Positions 3,608-33,727 of a stretch of 40,729 nt of DNA are shown one piece after another. Within the stretch, counting starts at the first letter, position 1. Every line of letters begins with the position of its first letter. The DNA is taken from assembly GCA_017470345.1 (NCBI GenBank), contig JAFUEP010000037.1:1-40729 (forward strand), in the 5' to 3' direction. The translations under genes and the position numbers were made by a program. Below the pieces are notes generated by a model. It worked only from the letters and a program-made list of their open reading frames with translations, made no database searches and had not been told where the DNA came from. This stretch comes from Prevotella sp. (GTDB lineage Bacteria > Bacteroidota > Bacteroidia > Bacteroidales > Bacteroidaceae).

Positions 3608-4654
3608 ATGAAACGCATTAGTATGACCATCAGACAACGTTCGACACAGATGCTCACCGGGATATGCCTCGCCGCAGGCGTCTTCCTCACTGCCTGCGGC
3701 GTCATCGACGACGACCTCTCAGACTGTGAGAAAGACCTCCATATCAACTACCACGTGGCGGTACAGACAAACCTGAGCGACCAGGTGCAGACCGTGCTCC
3801 GCGACCGTCAGGAGACGGCCGTGGCCCAACTGGTGGAAGACTCGCTGGCCGACTTCTTCCGTCCCTATGCCTACGACGCCGGCCTCTCGTTCTATAACGC
3901 CACGGGTCTGGCCCACGATGAGACCCAACAGATGAACGCGCAGCACGCCACCTTCGACGTGACGCTCAAGCCCGGCGTCTACCGCCACCTCGCCCTCGCC
4001 AACATGGCGCGTGAGGGACGAGTCGTGGCCCAGCAGACCACTGACGCCGCCACCTGCCGCCTGGCACAGACGGGCGCTGACAACCAGGAAGGCCACAGCT
4101 CCAGCCTCTTCACCGCCCGCAAGGACATCGACGCCCAGGGCACCGGCGAGGCCACGGCCGACGTCACCTTCTACATGACCAACTGCGCCAGCGTCCTCGT
4201 CATCCGTACCGACACCATTAAGTATAACGACATACGCGTGGAGAGCTGCGACTTCGCCGACGGCTTCACCGTCGACGACAGCGTCTTCACCTACGCCTCC
4301 AACCCCATCATCGCAGACCACCGCATGCGCACCGGCGTACCCGCACAGCGTGAGGTGTTCTATGCCAAGACGTTCCCCTCGCACGACACCGCCGCTGCTG
4401 CACATGCCCGCAGCCGTGCCGACGACCACCAGATGGGGGCCGACGACGCTGAGCGCGTCTGGCGCAAGGTGGCCTACGTGACCATGCCCGACGGCTCCAT
4501 CACCCGCACCGTCATCAACGTGCGCACACCGCTGCAGGCCAGCAAGGCCTACATCATCTACGGCATCATGGCCTCCGACGGCTCCATCCACTCCTACAAC
4601 GTCGAGGTCGGCACCTCGGTGACGCTCAACTGGAAGGAAGGACTCATTTTCTAA
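3608..4654 (+). CDS. FimB/Mfa2-family fimbrial anchor lipoprotein
   Basis: A 348-residue lipoprotein with lipobox VFLTAC (Cys30), directly followed by the family hallmark G-V-I-D-D-D-L-S-D-C. Mfa2/FimB proteins sit in the outer membrane, anchor the fimbria and limit its length. The length and the two-domain beta-sandwich layout fit: a middle region with LKPGVYRHLALAN and a second half ending in GTSVTLNWKEGLIF. Its position right after the first fimbrillin gene is the usual order (major subunit, then anchor). An Ala/His/Arg-rich stretch around residues 260-280 is unusually hydrophilic. No T/S-R processing site is evident, as expected for an anchor that is not polymerised. Confidence 0.85.
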   Translation: MKRISMTIRQRSTQMLTGICLAAGVFLTACGVIDDDLSDCEKDLHINYHVAVQTNLSDQVQTVLRDRQETAVAQLVEDSLADFFRPYAYDAGLSFYNATGLAHDETQQMNAQHATFDVTLKPGVYRHLALANMAREGRVVAQQTTDAATCRLAQTGADNQEGHSSSLFTARKDIDAQGTGEATADVTFYMTNCASVLVIRTDTIKYNDIRVESCDFADGFTVDDSVFTYASNPIIADHRMRTGVPAQREVFYAKTFPSHDTAAAAHARSRADDHQMGADDAERVWRKVAYVTMPDGSITRTVINVRTPLQASKAYIIYGIMASDGSIHSYNVEVGTSVTLNWKEGLIF

Positions 4655-4656
4655 GT

Positions 4657-4680
4657 GAGAAGTGAGAAGTGAGAAGTGAG
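4657..4680 (+). repeat. Heptad tandem repeat (GAGAAGT) after the anchor gene
   Basis: Three exact GAGAAGT units and one degenerate unit begin two bases after the TAA stop. They belong to the heptad family seen elsewhere in the window. Confidence 0.8.
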
Positions 4681-4700
4681 AGGCAGCAAAACTAACGTCT

Positions 4701-4732
4701 AAACTCCTAAACTCCCAAACTCCTAAACTCCC
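4701..4732 (+). repeat. 8-bp tandem repeat (AAACTCCT/AAACTCCC)
   Basis: Four 8-bp units alternate strictly between AAACTCCT and AAACTCCC, 30 bp upstream of the next ATG. The period differs from the heptad family. No function is visible. Confidence 0.8.
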
Positions 4733-4762
4733 AATAAAAAGAAAACAATATATATATTATAT

Positions 4763-6877
4763 ATGAAAAAGAAACAATCACTGTATATCGCATCACTGAC
4801 GGGCGTGCTCGCACTTTGCGCCGCCTGCTCCGACGACGACTCGTGGGGCGACGCTCAGCTGCAGCAGATCAGCACACGGCTGACCTTCTCGCTGCCCCAG
4901 CGCATCGTGGGCACCATGCCCGCTGCTGACAGCACCGCAGAGGCACAGACCCGCATGACCGACTATGTGGTGCAGACCAGCGAGGACGCCAGCGACTTCC
5001 GCGGACTCGACGACATCCGTCTGCTATGCTTCGACGCCGCACCCAAGGCCGGCGCACGCAGCCGCAGCGGCCTGTCGCTCACCGGCGGCCGTGAGATCAG
5101 CGACTACACGTCGCCCATCGCCGACTTCTCCAAGGTCTATCAGGTAGAGGTGCCCCTCGGCACCACACACATGGCTTTCTATGCCAAGGCGAAGGACGAC
5201 GGCAGCGACCCCGCACACAACGGCTCGCTCAGCGCTGACGGCCTCGACGGCACCACCGTCGCCCTCGACGACGTCACCTTCGCACCCGTCGCCATCTGCA
5301 CCAGCGAGGCCGACCAGGGTGGCAGCGCCGCCGGACAGGCCCTCGTCCGTCTGCTCAACGACCTCGCCGCCACGACCGGTCCCGAGGCAGCCCCCGACGA
5401 CCGCTGGTCGACGGCCGCCGATGAGTTCCTCGTCGAGACGTGGCGCGGACTGACCGAGCTCAAGACGCTTTCCTCGGCTAACGTCGAGCGCGTCCTTGGC
5501 ACCATCCACCACCTCGTCAGCACCATCCCCAACGAATTCCCCGGCCAGCAGCTCGGCCAGGCCATTGCCGCCCGCATCGCAGCCGCCTGTGCCACGACGC
5601 CCGCCGCCGGCGATGAGGTCATCGTCCTCAGCGACCAGTATCAGGGCTTCCCCGCCGACCTCGGCCTGCCCGAGGGTGCCGCCCGCATCGAGTGGGACGC
5701 CGCCAGCCGCCGTTTCGTCACCCCCAAGGCGCAGGTCTACGGCAAGGGCCTCGACATCCCCGCCATGTCTGACTATGTCTATCCCGCCAGCCTGCAGTAT
5801 CTGGCCCTCTCGCCCATCGTCGCCAGCGACTCGCTGGCACTGCCCGGCGATCCCCTTGCCGACGATGCCAACACCGTCTACACCTCGTGGCAGCAGCTCC
5901 TCGACGACTGCTATGCCGACGGCTACGACCGTGTCAAGGAGTCCACGCAGTCCGTCGCCATGGTCGACCAGGTGCAGTATGCCGTCGGACGCCTCGACAG
6001 CCGCGTCATCATGGAGAGCCGCTTCCTCTACGACGCCTACGGACGCTCCATCGACGCCATGAAGGGCTTCACCCTCACCGGATGCCTCATCGCTGGACAG
6101 CGCCCCGTCGGCTACGACTTCCAGCCCATCGCCACTTCGACCGACGACTACGTCATCTACGACACCGACCTGCAGGGCGGTCCCCAGCAGGTCAGCTACA
6201 CCGACTGGACGAAGTATAACCACACCCTCGGCCTGCCCACGTCGGCCGACGCCAACGTCCTCATGGCCCTCCAGCTGCGCAACGACGGACCCGAGTTCCA
6301 GGGTGCCGACGGACGCATCGCCACCGGCGCCACCTTCTATCTCGTGGCCGACCTCGTGCCCCGCACCGCCGCCAACTACCAGTCGAACACCCTCGACCGC
6401 GTCTTCATCAGCGACCACATCACCACCGTCTCGCTCAGCATCATGAAGGGCAGCGCCGACGTCAACGGCGACGGCAAGCCCGACACCGACCGCAACAACG
6501 ACGGCAAGCCCGACGTCTACGTCTTCGATCCTGTCACAGGTCAGCCCACCGGCATCGACGCCGACGGCGACGGCACGCCCGAGCCCACCTACGACGTCAA
6601 CGGCGACGGCACGCCCGACACGTTCATCGCCAGCGACACCGACAGCGACGGTAAGCCCGACACCTTCGGATGGGACACCGACGGCGACGGCACCATCGAC
6701 AAGCCCGTGCAGCCCGCCGACGACGACTCGTGGCCCGACACGCCCACCACGGCCTCCGGCCTCGCCACCGCCACCTACGGCATCCCCACGCTCGTCGAGC
6801 AGCGCCAGCAGCGCACCTTCGGTCTGAGCGTCGACCTCAACTGGAGCCGCGGACACATCTTCGATATCGAGTTCTGA
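4763..6877 (+). CDS. Fimbrillin-family lipoprotein with DxDGD calcium-type repeats
   Basis: A 704-residue paralogue of the protein at 1173. It has lipobox LCAAC (Cys22), a processing-type site QTRMT, the FRGLDDIRLLCF motif and the C-terminal strand FGLSVDLNW. Between the last core strands and the C-terminal strand lies an insert of about 90 residues (roughly 565-655). The insert is rich in D-x-N/D-G-D-G-x-P-D units (DVNGDGKPD, DADGDGTPE, DVNGDGTPD, DTDGDGTID), the spacing seen in thrombospondin type-3 or dockerin-like calcium loops. Such an insert could rigidify the subunit or bind calcium; no homologue in the window has it. Codons end almost always in G or C, unlike the paralogues at 1173 and 6951, suggesting a less abundant subunit or a different origin. 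Confidence 0.75.
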   Translation: MKKKQSLYIASLTGVLALCAACSDDDSWGDAQLQQISTRLTFSLPQRIVGTMPAADSTAEAQTRMTDYVVQTSEDASDFRGLDDIRLLCFDAAPKAGARSRSGLSLTGGREISDYTSPIADFSKVYQVEVPLGTTHMAFYAKAKDDGSDPAHNGSLSADGLDGTTVALDDVTFAPVAICTSEADQGGSAAGQALVRLLNDLAATTGPEAAPDDRWSTAADEFLVETWRGLTELKTLSSANVERVLGTIHHLVSTIPNEFPGQQLGQAIAARIAAACATTPAAGDEVIVLSDQYQGFPADLGLPEGAARIEWDAASRRFVTPKAQVYGKGLDIPAMSDYVYPASLQYLALSPIVASDSLALPGDPLADDANTVYTSWQQLLDDCYADGYDRVKESTQSVAMVDQVQYAVGRLDSRVIMESRFLYDAYGRSIDAMKGFTLTGCLIAGQRPVGYDFQPIATSTDDYVIYDTDLQGGPQQVSYTDWTKYNHTLGLPTSADANVLMALQLRNDGPEFQGADGRIATGATFYLVADLVPRTAANYQSNTLDRVFISDHITTVSLSIMKGSADVNGDGKPDTDRNNDGKPDVYVFDPVTGQPTGIDADGDGTPEPTYDVNGDGTPDTFIASDTDSDGKPDTFGWDTDGDGTIDKPVQPADDDSWPDTPTTASGLATATYGIPTLVEQRQQRTFGLSVDLNWSRGHIFDIEF

Positions 6878-6950
6878 CAATCACGCATTCGTCATGAACG
6901 ACAACATATAAATCATTAATTAATATTAACTCAATCCATTTCAAAAAACA

Positions 6951-8708
6951 ATGAAGAAAATGAAGAATTTCGCCTTCGTAGCAGCAGTGCTGCTCGCTGG
7001 CACAGCAGGCTTCACCGCCTGCTCATCCGACAACGAGGAGGTGCTCAGCCCCAACGTCGTCTTCGATGAGATGGGTAACAAGGGCGTCAAGCCTGAGTTC
7101 GCCATCTCCATTCCCCGCTCGGTCGTCAGCCGTATGAGCAACGAGGTGACGCAGAAAGCTGGCAACTCCGCAGTCTTCCGTGGCATGGAGCAGATCCAGC
7201 TTGTGCCGTTCAACGATGCAATTACCAAGGATCTCGCCAAGTCGTCGGACGTCATCAATCTGGAGAACATCACTGCCCTGCAGGAGGTCGGTACGCTCAA
7301 CTACAAGGTCTATGCTGACAAGTTCGTCCCCGTGGGCACCAGCAACTTCCTCTTCTATGGCAAGGCTATCGACAAGCCCGAGACCGCTGCTGACAAGTTC
7401 AAGTATGGCGTGCTCACCGCTGCCAACCTGGGCAAGGACTTCACCACGCCCGCTGCCGTTCAGTTTGGTCTCGAGCGCATCAACGCCGACAAGGAAGCCA
7501 TCGCTGGCGACGCTACCGGCCAGGCCATCATCAACCTGCTCAACGCCATTGCTTCTGTCGAGGGTTGGGCTACCACTGAGAATGATAACCTGAAGGATCT
7601 CTACAAGAAGTTCACCAGCCTGACAGTTGCTGCTTCTTATCAGGTAGCCATCGTGCTGAGCGACCTCTACTATGCCGCTGCTCATGTCGACATGGAGGAT
7701 GCTGCCTATGGTCTGTCGAAGGCTATCCGCGAAGAGATTGCCAAGGCCGGCACGCCCAAGAGCAACCAGCCCATGGCACTCAAGGCCGAGTACGATGGTT
7801 TCCCCGCCAACCTCAATCTGCCTGACGGCGCTGCCCGCATCAAGTGGAACGGCACGAAGTTTGAGGATGCCACCGCTACCTATGGTGAGAACAAGGCCGA
7901 CCTGACCCAGTATGCTTATCCTGCTGCCCTGTGGTACTATGCCAACACCCCCATCAAGGCTTCTGACGACATCGAGTCGACGGAGTATGACACTCAGGCC
8001 AGCTGGGACAAGGTCATCGGCACTGTCTATGGCGCTGCCGGTGCTGTGGTCACCGACAACACCCAGTCTGTCGCCCTCGTCAACCCCGCCCAGTATGCTG
8101 TTGGCCGCCTCGAGGTGACCGTCAAGCTCGGTGAGGAAGGTAAGACCGATTTCTTCGATCACGATGGTAAGAAGATGGACGTCTCCAAGGGCTTCACCCT
8201 CAAGGGCATCCTCATCGGCGGCCAGTGCGGTGTCGGCTACGACTTCACCACCCTCGGCAATGAGAACCTGACCATCTACGACTGCGATGTGGCTGCTGGC
8301 ACCCTCGTCAGCACCGAGAAGGCTTCTACAGAAAACCAGACCCTGGCCCTCGAGACCAAGGCTGACCTGCCCGTTAACATCGCTCTCGAGCTCGTCAACA
8401 ACGGCGATGAGTTCGTCGGTCGTGACGGTGGCATCATCCCTGCCGGCGCTACCTTCTATCTGGCAGCTAAGCTCGATCCCGCTCAGGCCAACAACTACAA
8501 GGCCGGTGAGCTCGACAAGGTCTTCATGCAGGACCACGTGACCAAGGTGACTGTCACCATCAAGAATGGTACGGAAGGCACGACCGATGACGACGGCCCT
8601 GGCGGTGGCGGTCCTACCGTCCCCGACCTCAGCAGCCCCAACATTGAGCTCGGCACGTCTGTCGACCTCGAGTGGCAGGAGGGTCTGATTTTCGAGCCCG
8701 CCATCTAA
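6951..8708 (+). CDS. Fimbrillin-family lipoprotein
   Basis: A 585-residue paralogue and the shortest of the four. It has lipobox GFTAC (Cys25), an S-R processing-type site (VVSRMSNEV), the FRGMEQIQLVPF motif and an ATFYLAAKLDP segment. A Gly/Asp-rich linker (DDDGPGGGGPTVPDL) precedes the C-terminal strand LGTSVDLEWQEGLIF. The linker occupies the same place as the DxDGD insert of the preceding paralogue, so this joint appears tolerant of insertion. Codon use resembles the gene at 1173 (many GCT and TAT), suggesting high expression. ATG 6951 and a second ATG at 6960 are both possible starts. The 73-bp upstream gap is AT-rich and has no clear promoter; co-transcription with the upstream gene is likely. 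Confidence 0.75.
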   Translation: MKKMKNFAFVAAVLLAGTAGFTACSSDNEEVLSPNVVFDEMGNKGVKPEFAISIPRSVVSRMSNEVTQKAGNSAVFRGMEQIQLVPFNDAITKDLAKSSDVINLENITALQEVGTLNYKVYADKFVPVGTSNFLFYGKAIDKPETAADKFKYGVLTAANLGKDFTTPAAVQFGLERINADKEAIAGDATGQAIINLLNAIASVEGWATTENDNLKDLYKKFTSLTVAASYQVAIVLSDLYYAAAHVDMEDAAYGLSKAIREEIAKAGTPKSNQPMALKAEYDGFPANLNLPDGAARIKWNGTKFEDATATYGENKADLTQYAYPAALWYYANTPIKASDDIESTEYDTQASWDKVIGTVYGAAGAVVTDNTQSVALVNPAQYAVGRLEVTVKLGEEGKTDFFDHDGKKMDVSKGFTLKGILIGGQCGVGYDFTTLGNENLTIYDCDVAAGTLVSTEKASTENQTLALETKADLPVNIALELVNNGDEFVGRDGGIIPAGATFYLAAKLDPAQANNYKAGELDKVFMQDHVTKVTVTIKNGTEGTTDDDGPGGGGPTVPDLSSPNIELGTSVDLEWQEGLIFEPAI

Positions 8709-29882: not shown

Positions 29883-29944
29883 GGAGGCGACGTGTCCCAC
29901 GTCGCATCAATCTGCTGGATTGCGACGTGAGACACGTCGCCTCC
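29883..29944 (+). repeat. REPIN (inverted REP pair) in the methyltransferase leader
   Basis: Two REPs face each other across a 15-bp spacer. Each has a GGAG head and the palindrome GCGACGTG-n3-CACGTCGC. The left copy is preceded by GTAG. The GTAG/GGAG head is the classical mark of RAYT-associated REPs. Confidence 0.85.
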
Positions 29945-29988: not shown

Positions 29989-32900
29989 ATGGGTATGAAG
30001 ACAGATAGTCAGATGGCAGAAGCAGCAGCGAAGTTCGCTGCACGTTGGGAAGGCAGGGGCTATGAGAGAGGCGAGTCGCAGCCTTTCTGGATTGACTTGC
30101 TGAGCCATGTCTTTGGCGTTGAGACACCTACAGATGGATTCATACGCTTCGAAGAGCATCATAAGGTGGATGAATCGAACTTCGTTGACGGACGCATCCC
30201 TTCCACCCGTGTGCTCATCGAGCAGAAGTCGCTGGGCAAAGACCTGCGGGCACCTATCCGTCAGAGCGACGGAGCGCTGCTCAATCCATTCCAGCAGGCT
30301 CGCCGCTATGTGGTAGGGCTGCCTGTCTCGGAGCATCCCCGCTGGATAGTGACCTGCAACTTCTCCGAGTTTCTGGTCTATGACATGGAGCAGCCCAACG
30401 GTGAGCCGGAGCAGATTATGCTGAAGGACTTGGGCAGGGAATACTACCGGCTGAAGTTCCTCGTTGATGCCAAGAACGAACATATATCGAAGGAGATGCA
30501 GGTGTCGATGCAGGCAGGTGAGATTGTCGGCAAGATATATGACGCCTTGCTGAAACAATACGATGACAATTCGCCCGAAGCCCTCCGCTGGCTCAACATT
30601 CTCTGTGTGCGCATCGTGTTCTGCTTGTATGCCGAAGATGCAGAGATATTCACGCACGACCAGTTTCACGATTTCCTTACGACATACGAAGCCAAGGACA
30701 TGCGTAGGGCATTACGTGATTTGTTTGAAGTTCTGAATACTCCACAAGAGAAGCGCAGTAAATATCTGCAAGACGACTTGAAAGCATTCCCCTATACTAA
30801 TGGCGGGCTGTTTGCTGAGGAAATCGAGATACCGCAGTTCACTGAAGCGCTGAAGCAGACGCTGCTACAGAATGCGTCGCTCGACTTCGACTGGAGCGAG
30901 ATTTCGCCAACCATCTTCGGAGCCGTGTTTGAATCGACGCTCAATCCTGAGACACGTCGCAGCGGCGGCATGCACTACACCTCGATAGAGAACATTCATA
31001 AGGTCATCGACCCGCTCTTCCTGAATGACCTGCGCCGTGAGCTTGACGAGATCCTGGAGGAGAAAGTGGAGCGCCAGCGCCAGCGCAAACTCGGCGAGTA
31101 TCAGTCGAAACTCTCGTCGCTGACCTTCCTTGACCCGGCTTGCGGCTCGGGCAACTTCCTGACGGAGACTTACCTCTCGCTGCGCCGGCTTGAGAACGAG
31201 GCCATCCGTGAAATGTATCACGGACAGATGATGTTGGGTGCCTTCGTCAACCCCGTCAAGGTGAGCATTCAGCAGTTCTACGGCATCGAGATCAACGATT
31301 TCGCCGTCACCGTGGCCACCACCGCCCTGTGGATTTCCGAAGCGCAGATGCTTCGTGAGACGGAGAAGATAGTCCATCAGGAAATTGACTTCCTGCCGTT
31401 GAAGAGCTATACCAATATCAGAGAAGGTAATGCCTTAAGAATGGACTGGTTAGGAGGCGACGTGTCCCACGTCGCAACAGAGGACGCCTCGTCCCACGTC
31501 GCCTCCGGCCAAGCTGCTGATTGCGACGTGAGACACGTCGCCTCCTTGCAGTTTATGGAGCGTCACAAATACATTCGAATAACAGGCAATAAACTGCCTC
31601 ATTGGCATCAGAACAGTAAAGTTCAGTTCGTGACCTTCAGATTGGCTGACTCTCTGCCGCAGGCACGATTGGCCGAACTCTCTGAATTCAAGAACCAATG
31701 GTTGTCCGCCCATCCTGAGCCTTGGACCAAGCAGACGGAAGAGGAATACAATCACATTATCAGAAATAAAATAGACAAATGGCTCGACAACAACTATGGG
31801 AATTGCCTGTTGCAAAACGAAGCTGTCAGGCAGATTGTCATTGACAGTCTGCTCTTCAACAATGGCAAGAGTTATTGGCTCCATAGTTTTGTCATCATGC
31901 CAAACCACGTCCACCTGTTGATTTCACCTATCGGCGACATCACAATCAATGAGTCTGTTGGCAACGTCAAGAAATTCACGGCTCATTCCATCAACAGGTT
32001 GTTAGGACGACAGGGAGAAGTGTGGCAACGCGAAATTTTCGACCGCATGGTACGCGATCAGCAGAATTATGAAGCCTACGAGAGATATATCTATGACAAT
32101 CCCAGCCATCTGCCTATTGGCACCTACTCCATAGGAGGCGACGTGTCTCACGTCGCAACAGAGGACGTCGCGTCTCACGTCGCCTCCGGCAATGCTGATG
32201 GTTGCGACGTGAGACACGTCGCCTCCTACAATGCTGGTGATTGCGACGTGAGACACGTCGCCTCCTATGATTACATCATCGGCAACCCGCCATTTATTGG
32301 CGCCCGCCAGATGGACAGCGAACAAAAACAGGATGTCCTCAGCATTTTTGGAGAAAAGTGGAAGAATGTCGGCAATCTTGACTACGTCTGCTGCTGGTAT
32401 AAGAAAGCCTTCGATGCCATGAAGATAGGCAATCCCAAGGTGGCTTTTGTTTCTACTAACAGCATCTGTCAGGGCGAACAAGTGGCTAATCTCTGGCAAC
32501 CGCTTATGGAGCGTGGCTTGCATATAGACTTTGCTCACCGCACCTTCCGCTGGGACAGCGAATCCTCCACAAAAGCACAAGTGCATTGTGTGATTGTGGG
32601 CTTTAGCAAACAAGATCGTCAGTTGCGACGTGAGACACGTCGCCTCCTAAACGGCAAAGACGAAGAGTGCTTGTTATTCGACAATGACAAAGTGATAAAA
32701 GTCAACCACATCAATGCCTATCTGACTGCCGCACCCGATATCTTTATTTGGAGCCGACCGAAGCCGATATGTGATGTACCGCTGATAAGTATGGGTAACC
32801 AGCCTATAGATGGTGGTAACTATCTTTTTGACAAAGATGAGATGGAGGATTTCGTCAAAGAAGAGCCTTTGTCTGCTGCATATTTCCATCCTTATTACGG

Positions 32901-33588
32901 AGCCCTTGAATTTATCAACCGCAAGCCCCGATATTGCTTATGGCTCGGAAACTGTACGCCTGCTGAATTACGCAATATGCCACATTGTATGAAACGCATT
33001 GAGGCTGTACGCGAAGTAAGATTATCAAGCAAAAGACCTTCTACGCTTAAACTTGCAGACAGACCGACACGTTTCCAAACAGAGAACTTCCCGACGGAAG
33101 ATTATATCGTCATCCCAGAGGTTTCATCAGAGAAACGCCGTTATATTCCGATGGGGATTATGACCCCAAATGATATTTGTAGCAACAAACTGCGCATTAT
33201 GCCTAACGTGTCACGTTATCATTTCGGTATACTTCAGTCAAATGTTCACATGGCTTGGATGCGAGCTGTTGCAGGTCGCTTAGAAATGCGATATGACTAT
33301 AGCATCAACATCGTCTATAACAATTTCCCTTGGCCTACACCTACGGACGAACAGAGGGCAAAGATAGAGCAGACGGCTCAAGCTATTCTTGATGCCCGCG
33401 CTCTCTATCCCGACTCATCACTCGCTGACCTATACGACGAACTGACAATGCCCCCAGAACTGCGCAAAGCCCATCAAGAGAATGATCGTGCCGTCATGCA
33501 GGCATACGGTTTCCCTGTCAAGAGCACTTTCACGGAAAGCCATTGCGTTGCAGAACTATTCAGGCTATATAATGAGATAACTAAGTAA
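29989..33588 (+). CDS. Type IIL (MmeI-like) restriction-methyltransferase with a nested RAYT
   Basis: A single open frame of 1199 residues. The N-terminal nuclease part has a D-x9-E-x-K pattern in DGRIPSTRVLIEQK (about 67-80). The methyltransferase has motif I DPACGSGNF (about 381-389), GIEINDFAV, NALRMDW and the catalytic NPPF (766-769). A target-recognition region follows, up to the C-terminus. MmeI-like enzymes cut and methylate with one polypeptide of about 930 residues. The excess here is about 270 residues inserted between NALRMDW and YDYIIGNPPF: REP-encoded peptides flanking a complete Y1 transposase domain (residues about 523-710). A further REP (32623-32647) is read in frame as QLRRETRRLL. 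No stop or frameshift is seen. Whether the enzyme still works is unknown. ATG 29995 is an alternative start. Confidence 0.85.
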   Translation: MGMKTDSQMAEAAAKFAARWEGRGYERGESQPFWIDLLSHVFGVETPTDGFIRFEEHHKVDESNFVDGRIPSTRVLIEQKSLGKDLRAPIRQSDGALLNPFQQARRYVVGLPVSEHPRWIVTCNFSEFLVYDMEQPNGEPEQIMLKDLGREYYRLKFLVDAKNEHISKEMQVSMQAGEIVGKIYDALLKQYDDNSPEALRWLNILCVRIVFCLYAEDAEIFTHDQFHDFLTTYEAKDMRRALRDLFEVLNTPQEKRSKYLQDDLKAFPYTNGGLFAEEIEIPQFTEALKQTLLQNASLDFDWSEISPTIFGAVFESTLNPETRRSGGMHYTSIENIHKVIDPLFLNDLRRELDEILEEKVERQRQRKLGEYQSKLSSLTFLDPACGSGNFLTETYLSLRRLENEAIREMYHGQMMLGAFVNPVKVSIQQFYGIEINDFAVTVATTALWISEAQMLRETEKIVHQEIDFLPLKSYTNIREGNALRMDWLGGDVSHVATEDASSHVASGQAADCDVRHVASLQFMERHKYIRITGNKLPHWHQNSKVQFVTFRLADSLPQARLAELSEFKNQWLSAHPEPWTKQTEEEYNHIIRNKIDKWLDNNYGNCLLQNEAVRQIVIDSLLFNNGKSYWLHSFVIMPNHVHLLISPIGDITINESVGNVKKFTAHSINRLLGRQGEVWQREIFDRMVRDQQNYEAYERYIYDNPSHLPIGTYSIGGDVSHVATEDVASHVASGNADGCDVRHVASYNAGDCDVRHVASYDYIIGNPPFIGARQMDSEQKQDVLSIFGEKWKNVGNLDYVCCWYKKAFDAMKIGNPKVAFVSTNSICQGEQVANLWQPLMERGLHIDFAHRTFRWDSESSTKAQVHCVIVGFSKQDRQLRRETRRLLNGKDEECLLFDNDKVIKVNHINAYLTAAPDIFIWSRPKPICDVPLISMGNQPIDGGNYLFDKDEMEDFVKEEPLSAAYFHPYYGALEFINRKPRYCLWLGNCTPAELRNMPHCMKRIEAVREVRLSSKRPSTLKLADRPTRFQTENFPTEDYIVIPEVSSEKRRYIPMGIMTPNDICSNKLRIMPNVSRYHFGILQSNVHMAWMRAVAGRLEMRYDYSINIVYNNFPWPTPTDEQRAKIEQTAQAILDARALYPDSSLADLYDELTMPPELRKAHQENDRAVMQAYGFPVKSTFTESHCVAELFRLYNEITK
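31453..31545 (+). repeat. REP array left of the RAYT (3 REPs)
   Basis: Three REP palindromes, the first in direct and the last in inverted orientation, separated by short spacers. Translated as GGDVSHVATED and CDVRHVAS. The order matches the start of the right array. Confidence 0.85.
32134..32265 (+). repeat. REP array right of the RAYT (4 REPs)
   Basis: The first three REPs repeat the left array almost base for base, with the same ACAGAGGACG spacer. A fourth inverted REP follows after a TACAATGCTGGTGA spacer. It ends two codons before YIIGNPPF. Confidence 0.85.
32623..32647 (+). repeat. Single REP inside the methyltransferase coding region
   Basis: One inverted-orientation REP (GCGACGTGAGACACGTCGC plus CTCC) read in a different frame from the other coding REPs, giving QLRRETRRLL. 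It lies in the target-recognition half of the protein. Confidence 0.85.
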
Positions 33589-33627
33589 TATGCAAAAAAA
33601 TATTGGTACAATTTGGCTGCCTCAGTA

Positions 33628-33688
33628 GGAGGCGACGTGTCCTCACGTCGCACTTGCCGCAGGTGTCACGTGAGGACACGTGACCTCC
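33628..33688 (+). repeat. Variant REPIN downstream of the methyltransferase
   Basis: GTAGGAGG head, then GCGACGTG-TCCT-CACGTCGC (4-nt loop), an 11-bp spacer, and an inverted partner in which GTCACGTG pairs with CACGTGAC. It is more diverged than the other REPs. Confidence 0.75.
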
Positions 33689-33727
33689 TAAATCTTACGG
33701 TCACTAAACAATCTTGACGTCCGGGTG

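Follow-up and report, generated by a model that had tools for sequence, protein, structure and literature searches.

A MmeI-family (Type IIL) restriction-methyltransferase gene from Prevotella sp. carries, in frame and directly before its catalytic motif IV, a complete RAYT transposase domain flanked by REPs (Table 1). The frame is open, the motifs are intact and a REP-only allele occurs at the orthologous locus. We propose, with a probability of roughly 70%, that the insert is a REP/RAYT mobile element that is transparent to translation and is carried in host-protein loops that tolerate it. The window, meaning the whole stretch of DNA that was analysed, comprises 40,729 nucleotides of contig JAFUEP010000037.1.

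Table 1. Features of the fusion gene and its surroundings by window position, and host genes in which RAYTs were found in frame
Feature	Position	Strand	Residues, content or basis
REP pair just upstream of the fusion gene, outside the gene	29886..29941	.	
MmeI-family (Type IIL) restriction-methyltransferase gene with in-frame RAYT	29989..33588	+	1199 aa
N-terminal part	29989..31449	+	residues 1-487; nuclease with IEQK, helical spacer, MTase motif I
Content of slot A (REP unit, RAYT, REP units)	31450..32265	+	residues 488-759; between NALRMDW and YDYIIGNPPF
Left inverted-REP unit	31451..31546	+	translated GGDVSHVAT...CDVRHVAS
RAYT domain	31546..32133	+	residues 520-715; LQFMERHKYIRITG ... NPSHLPIGTYSI; Y1_Tnp, AlphaFold, fold match
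RAYT catalytic codons	HUH 31906-31914; Tyr 32086-32088	+	
Right inverted-REP unit and one extra REP	32132..32267	+	in frame
C-terminal part	32266..33588	+	motif IV NPPF, remaining MTase, TRD, C-terminal helices
NPPF codons	32284-32295	+	
Single in-frame REP in slot B	32621..32649	+	LRRETRRLL; after strand HCVIVGFS; common to L006
Inverted-REP unit just downstream of the fusion gene, outside the gene	33626..33690	.	
In-frame RAYT host, MmeI			G000, G415, G589, G739
In-frame RAYT host, PglX			G575
In-frame RAYT host, Type IIG			G820, G824
In-frame RAYT host, HsdR			G781; frame broken further on
In-frame RAYT host, PLD-SNF2 helicase			G1105
In-frame RAYT host, CbiG-CobM			G109; C-terminus
In-frame RAYT host, WYL regulator			G236; through-frame inferred
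In-frame RAYT host, DapF			G880; C-terminus

The preliminary description placed MmeI motifs, REP peptides and a full RAYT in a single 1199-codon frame, and the frame listing and Pfam agree. Five MmeI models (MmeI_N, MmeI_hel, MmeI_Mtase, MmeI_TRD and MmeI_C) and Y1_Tnp all scored above cut-off in Pfam, and PADLOC assigned the gene to REase_MTase_IIG (PDLC03598, 1141 bits). Along the frame, DPACGSGNF is followed by REP peptides, MPNHVHLL, ERYIYDNP, further REPs and YDYIIGNPPF. The IEQK, DPACGSGNF and NPPF motifs are all intact. The N-terminal part is 69-98% identical in amino acids to related loci (best 80 of 90). In the model of the whole protein, the predicted closest PDB fold is MmeI (5hr4); homologue L053 was aligned to this structure. 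The model has a pTM of 0.40 and falls under pLDDT 50 at residues 489-561 and 700-759, which cover roughly the first 42 and the last 16 residues of the modelled RAYT. The gene stands alone, with a DUF4468/porin pair on one side and uvrB on the other. As the outer REP pairs bracket it, the restriction gene itself could be cargo between REPs.

Y1_Tnp matched residues 630-703 with 28.6 bits in the whole protein and 31.3 bits in the insert alone (cut-off 23). Modelled by itself, the RAYT reached an AlphaFold pLDDT of 92.5, with TnpA_REP (4er8) as its predicted top fold match. Residues N118, H119, H121, W158 and Y179 were invariant in 32 aligned RAYTs, including all 13 aligned in-frame ones, and REPs lie outside the HUH-Tyr stretch. 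The transposase residues and the frame are both kept, as had been noticed earlier. NHVH and WQ are present, together with YIYDNP in the window RAYT and YIYNNP in L005. The RAYT equivalog NF047646 scored 58.4 bits in the insert and 55.2 in the whole protein, under its cut-off of 80, and the IS200-type transposase model NF033573 scored 20.5 bits, under its cut-off of 55.

The two REP units on either side of the RAYT (31451-31546 and 32132-32227, about 96 nt each) are 92% identical and contain inverted REPs. They form direct repeats with a spacing of 681 nt, or 227 codons, which is neutral to the frame. Allowing two mismatches at most, the REP core matched nine times in the window against 0.05 expected, and none of 100 shuffles reached nine. 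The exact core occurs at 23 places in the organism's own draft genome, six of them within the fusion gene. The remaining 17 are found outside genes, near a frame end or in frames no longer than 309 aa, some of them at contig ends where frames are cut. With none of these 17 deep inside a long frame, REPs in this genome are not intragenic as a rule. A search of the own assembly, an incomplete draft of 68 contigs (61.55% complete), with the insert found, apart from the insert itself, a single antisense match to the REPs of the insert.

The junctions between RAYT and REPs are identical in the window and in L005 (left CCTCCTTGCAGTTTATGG, right TACTCCATAGGAGG). In the free-standing sisters L210 and L211, SSLQF stands behind a start codon, and YTLGGTL is followed by a stop. 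The REP ends therefore replace the start-side and stop-side sequence of the free sisters, which makes the insert a cassette without its own stop and without the ancestral start. No stop separates the RAYT from the host, which sets it apart from a free-standing REPtron. For the same reason a shorter RAYT from ATG 31555, as had been suggested, is not to be expected: translation from that codon would run on through the entire C-terminal half of the enzyme.

To place the insert among related enzymes, we used the best 80 of 90 loci from a scan of genome contigs. All but one of the 80 were titled Prevotella, Prevotellaceae, Bacteroidaceae, Bacteroidales or Bacteroidetes, the last being just 'bacterium', and 78 contained both enzyme parts. 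Among these 78 spanning loci (best 80 of 90), three have an in-frame RAYT in the loop before motif IV, here called slot A (L003, L004 and L005; 244-276 aa). A different loop of 58-64 aa occupies slot A in 63 loci, and four (L048, L053, L060 and L079) have 9 aa, as in MmeI itself. L006 has 29 aa of REPs from the same family as in the window, without a RAYT, and the remaining seven lengths are 27, 32, 52, 67, 70, 70 and 73 aa. The 27-aa slot of L074 is palindromic and REP-like, while L003 and L004 carry other REPs, translated NRSAGVSPAS and GARASRPQ. The contig of L036 stops at the slot A boundary (MDW, 4048-4050), as expected if a repeat lies there.

Residues 488-759 are thus absent from the usual enzyme. 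This answers in the negative whether residues 490-760 are part of it, and supports a tolerated in-frame domain insertion. With another loop in 63 and the 9-aa form in four of the 78 loci, the insert replaces or overwrites a variable loop and splits no fixed sequence. Of the suggested insertion at a conserved site, the position next to the catalytic motif holds, but the loop itself is naturally variable. The nearest relative among the best 80 of 90, L006 (L006/L239), is syntenic, with 95.8% DNA identity over 5.2 kb; its slot A contains one REP unit only, whose REPs differ in detail from those of the window. No clean empty site for slot A was found among the homologous loci examined. Because the RAYT and REP alleles are without the usual 58-64-aa loop, arrival came with loss or replacement.

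Slot A is one of four places where foreign in-frame cassettes were found in 99 distinct MmeI-type genes, a set that took in the window, L232 and L234 because they bear RAYTs. The others are after residue 193, slot B (878-892) and the linker between TRD and C-terminal domain (1117-1123). In L004, REPs occur at three of these four places. L232 and L234 have a RAYT in slot B, where the window and L006 have one REP, and DUF559 with inverted-repeat peptides is present there in L032 and L038. In these last two MmeI-type enzymes (ORFs 3866-7378 and 3992-7615, respectively), the nuclease-like DUF559 domain (PF04480), assigned by a Pfam run on L032 only, is enclosed by inverted-repeat peptides (SPSKIRGGQGAL / NAPxPPLxLEGE); this is another type of cassette that lives in frame in the same way.

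We compared divergence of cassette and host between the window and L005 with NG86 estimates. The host is at or near synonymous saturation, with pS of 0.74 (dS about 3) in the N-terminal and 0.85 (saturated) in the C-terminal part. The RAYTs are 90.3% identical in nucleotides and 90.7% in amino acids, with a dS of 0.43 (0.28-0.62) and a dN/dS of 0.096 (bootstrap 0.050-0.185). In 60-nt bins, identity was 0.88-0.95 in the RAYT, 0.56-0.82 in the REP linkers and 0.52-0.88 in the host, the rise being confined to the RAYT between REPs. The cassette therefore moved as a unit between long-diverged genes and postdates the split between its hosts. As the REP linkers themselves have diverged, REP turnover blurs the cassette edges. 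A 'recent' insertion, one of two readings suggested earlier, does not fit these values: a dS of 0.43 from a sister resident in the same slot and a dN/dS of about 0.10 indicate a lineage that has persisted under selection.

The same pattern could arise by recombination inside REPs without transposition. Here the REPs of the loop would serve as homology arms, and RAYT and REP-only slots would be swapped by homologous recombination with no need for an active transposase. We regard this as possible, at well under even odds. The identity jump between window and L005 falls between the outer REPs, the REP-only slot of L006 could receive a cassette, and the flanking units form direct repeats whose spacing keeps the frame. 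Exchange leaves unexplained, however, how different RAYT clades and REPs came into the same slot (L003, L004) and how RAYTs came into slot B and into PglX, IIG, HsdR and helicase genes. That the RAYT is under selection and that its HUH and Tyr residues are invariant furthermore imply that it is used.

A tree of 37 RAYTs (13 in frame and 24 free, leaving out G236) requires nine changes of state, at least six of them forced by starred branches. The free and in-frame labels showed no marked clustering on it (78 of 500 shuffles were as low). A single clade of the four slot A RAYTs (window, L003, L004 and L005) was rejected (p-AU 7e-63), which rules out a single ancestral insertion in slot A; these RAYTs come from at least two RAYT clades. 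The tree test did not reject L003 and L004 as one clade (p-AU 0.289), and the value for all 13 in-frame rows as one clade was 0.043. Upstream of the slot, the hosts of L003 and L004 are 82% identical, whereas their RAYTs are 53% identical. For L232 and L234 in slot B, the RAYTs are 68% and the hosts 58-63% identical, so these look like one arrival, judged from sequence similarity. Several RAYTs thus arrived independently in the same loop, in support of repeated arrival at one place beside the catalytic motif.

We then determined how often RAYTs lie in frame in other genes. Searches of the genus (398 genomes, E ≤ 1e-20; nine rows representing eight elements, as G236 spans two contigs), the family (399 genomes, E ≤ 1e-20; 10 places) and the order (344 genomes, E ≤ 1e-15; 20 places) gave 36 distinct places, the window's own being present in all three. 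In 12 of the 36, one inferred across a contig break, the RAYT is in frame inside or fused to another gene. Nine of these 12 hosts are of restriction or defence type by Pfam and PADLOC, in a sample biased by queries that were RAYTs from MmeI genes; without the window and with sister pairs collapsed, the share is six of nine. The MmeI assignments of G415, whose DNA is that of L003, and of G589/L232 come from homology and reading and not from a family scan. For DapF, Pfam at 1e-5 gave the epimerase alone, and the RAYT rests on the order search and the RAYT alignment. Not every host stays intact, as the HsdR gene (L262) has a frame break after the RAYT.

In the genus search, the other 126 of 135 places (counted by hand) hold more distant RAYTs in frames of at most 342 aa. 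Frames over 350 aa number three of eight versus none of 126 (Fisher p 1.4e-4, post hoc). MmeI-like genes make up an estimated 0.03% of the sampled genus genomes (hand count, at least about 137 places listed, 398 genomes, E below about 1e-15), yet they hold four of the seven within-family in-frame RAYTs, or three of six without the window. The 2% background in the comparison of host shares is an assumption, and the hypotheses were formed on the same data as the counts. A RAYT scan of IMG/VR gave eight stretches that matched the pattern, none of them confirmed, and a search of PLSDB gave one match only (26% identity, Bernardetia).

Several individual loci show further arrangements. A BREX PglX-type methyltransferase (L226, 731-4699) has a long REP-peptide array and a RAYT near its C-terminus; another of its REP peptides reaches to 19 residues ahead of NPPY, a position equivalent to slot A. 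In L259 the RAYT follows the strand VDTNILLIQK, a position that matches slot B by eye. The CbiG-CobM cobalamin gene (L203, 838-3552) contains an internal REP-like peptide and a C-terminally fused RAYT, and the diaminopimelate epimerase (L264, 1404-2894) has an in-frame C-terminal RAYT. A WYL-domain regulator (L236, 1-1203, minus strand, and L237, 1-840) is seemingly split in frame by a RAYT; its through-frame is inferred because both contigs end in the RAYT, and we kept the pieces separate. In L263 (1442-2566, minus strand), the RAYT has a C-terminal tail of repeated peptides (HPIREDADCSGSGPTAS) that is apparently REP-coded.

The many restriction and defence hosts, the excess of MmeI genes and the purifying selection on the RAYT would also fit a domesticated fusion, where the RAYT adds a function such as binding or nicking single-stranded or hairpin DNA of phages or plasmids. 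This is unlikely, considering how patchy the RAYT is (three of 78 slot-spanning loci among the best 80 of 90) and how its position shifts among slots A and B, the region before motif I and the C-terminus. Moreover, the CbiG-CobM, WYL and DapF hosts have no evident link to defence.

The RAYT and REPs might instead gather harmlessly in a dying gene whose enzyme no longer matters, as the absence of the cassette from most homologues and the broken frame in L262 could suggest. All enzyme domains and motifs of the fusion gene are intact, however, and with five outgroups its branch since the split from L006 has 9 nonsynonymous and 54 synonymous changes in the enzyme. The L006 branch has 11 and 35, and 16 and 22 could be assigned to neither. 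Purifying selection thus acts on both RAYT and enzyme. A dying gene would not need to keep its frame, yet none of the 24 other RAYT places looks like an out-of-frame interruption. This count comes from a neighbour-ORF heuristic, and the 24 were called free-standing by their own start and stop and neighbouring ORFs; L252 and L257 were without a full ORF of their own, L257 having an internal stop. We therefore think this reading improbable.

Marginally less probable still is a reversible switch, in which cells of the population would regain a different, active enzyme once the RAYT is excised. The frame-neutral direct repeats and the REP-only allele in a sister genome would suit it, but that allele comes from another genome and not from a subpopulation, and its REPs differ in detail. 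The precise excision proposed earlier also finds no counterpart, as the closest syntenic relative without a RAYT keeps REPs. An assembly chimera joining a RAYT locus to a MmeI locus, conceivable in an incomplete draft since REPs cause misjoins, is ruled out by the same arrangement, with its own divergence and an open frame, in the separate assemblies L003, L004 and L005 and in slot B of L232 and L234, which confirm that the fusion locus is real and recurrent.

We return to the translation-transparent element. Its RAYT has lost the stop and the ancestral start, with REP ends joined to the coding sequence at LQF (left) and TYSI (right), and the element sits just ahead of catalytic motif IV of the Type IIL enzyme, in a loop that is tolerant and varies naturally. 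Promoter, start codon and frame would all come from the host gene. The predicted single product of 1199 aa would be an independently folding HUH transposase on two REP-coded tethers, around which nuclease, methyltransferase and TRD fold as usual. Acting on REP hairpins in single-stranded DNA, the RAYT domain may keep REPs, and sometimes the whole cassette, moving, and only insertions that leave the host enzyme working would survive. That the fusion is made, that its RAYT is active and that the element moves through single-strand transposition and not through REP recombination we infer from sequence.

In these rumen-type bacteria, the repeated arrival of different cassette versions in the same loop suggests a kind of mobile element that lives inside working proteins. 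At even odds, this is a Bacteroidales life style in which cassettes without start and stop, RAYT with REPs and likewise DUF559 with inverted repeats, live inside proteins as 'inteins without splicing'. They would resettle a few corresponding loops that surround the methyltransferase core in restriction and BREX enzymes, drawing on the expression and spread of a defence gene that is kept working. Close kin of free-standing RAYTs are found here inside other proteins, with their active site kept, and return to the same loops of phage-defence enzymes. In-frame RAYTs offer a testable route to RAYT activity, REP spread and the use of a gene without breaking it, and the slots mark places beside the active site of restriction-methyltransferases where loops naturally tolerate insertions.

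RAYTs are usually seen as mostly single-copy, free-standing genes that maintain REPs. Like REPtrons, the fusion has a HUH, single-Tyr transposase (TnpA_REP) of about 195 aa with the predicted fold of 4er8 and inverted REP pairs on both sides, and its free-standing sisters L210 and L211 and the next one, L212, lie among REPs as ordinary REPtrons. Unlike these, the fusion RAYT reads through both REP flanks inside the frame of another protein, and does so in several lineages. Inteins with homing endonucleases also lie in frame near active sites of DNA enzymes and arrive repeatedly at one position. The intein-like targeting proposed earlier stands as this analogy but not as a mechanism: there is no splicing domain or splice-site residue (no Hint family at E ≤ 0.001; the insert ends ...HVAS and is followed by Tyr, not Cys, Ser or Thr), and the element would remain in the mature protein.

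The domains and motif IV of MmeI are described in PMC4833311. The fusion enzyme has the same domain order, motif I, NPPF and TRD as MmeI (5hr4), but 272 residues where MmeI has a 9-residue loop. In-frame REPs have been published: PMC3733652 describes them in numerous genes, many of which serve DNA synthesis and repair, and at about the same site in recB of X. campestris and X. oryzae. The intragenic REPs and Rickettsia palindromic elements described there add only a repeat peptide (20-30 aa, in places 43-82) to genes thought still functional, whereas here a whole transposase is added too. For a RAYT inside a restriction gene, and for whole RAYTs recurring in frame in restriction enzymes, our literature search of open-licence PMC papers found no report. 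Family surveys that set long fusions aside can miss such a class; the survey in PMC6006769 set aside a small number of surprisingly long proteins, which it took for fusions or annotation errors. In that survey, subclass 2.4 (RAYT group 4) has Bacteroidetes among its hosts, NH[IFV]H (such as NHVH), WQ and YIxNNP-type signatures with REPs between HUH and Tyr, and transposase genes that tolerate in-frame REPs in a peripheral variable region. There the REP lies inside the transposase gene; here the transposase lies inside the host gene.
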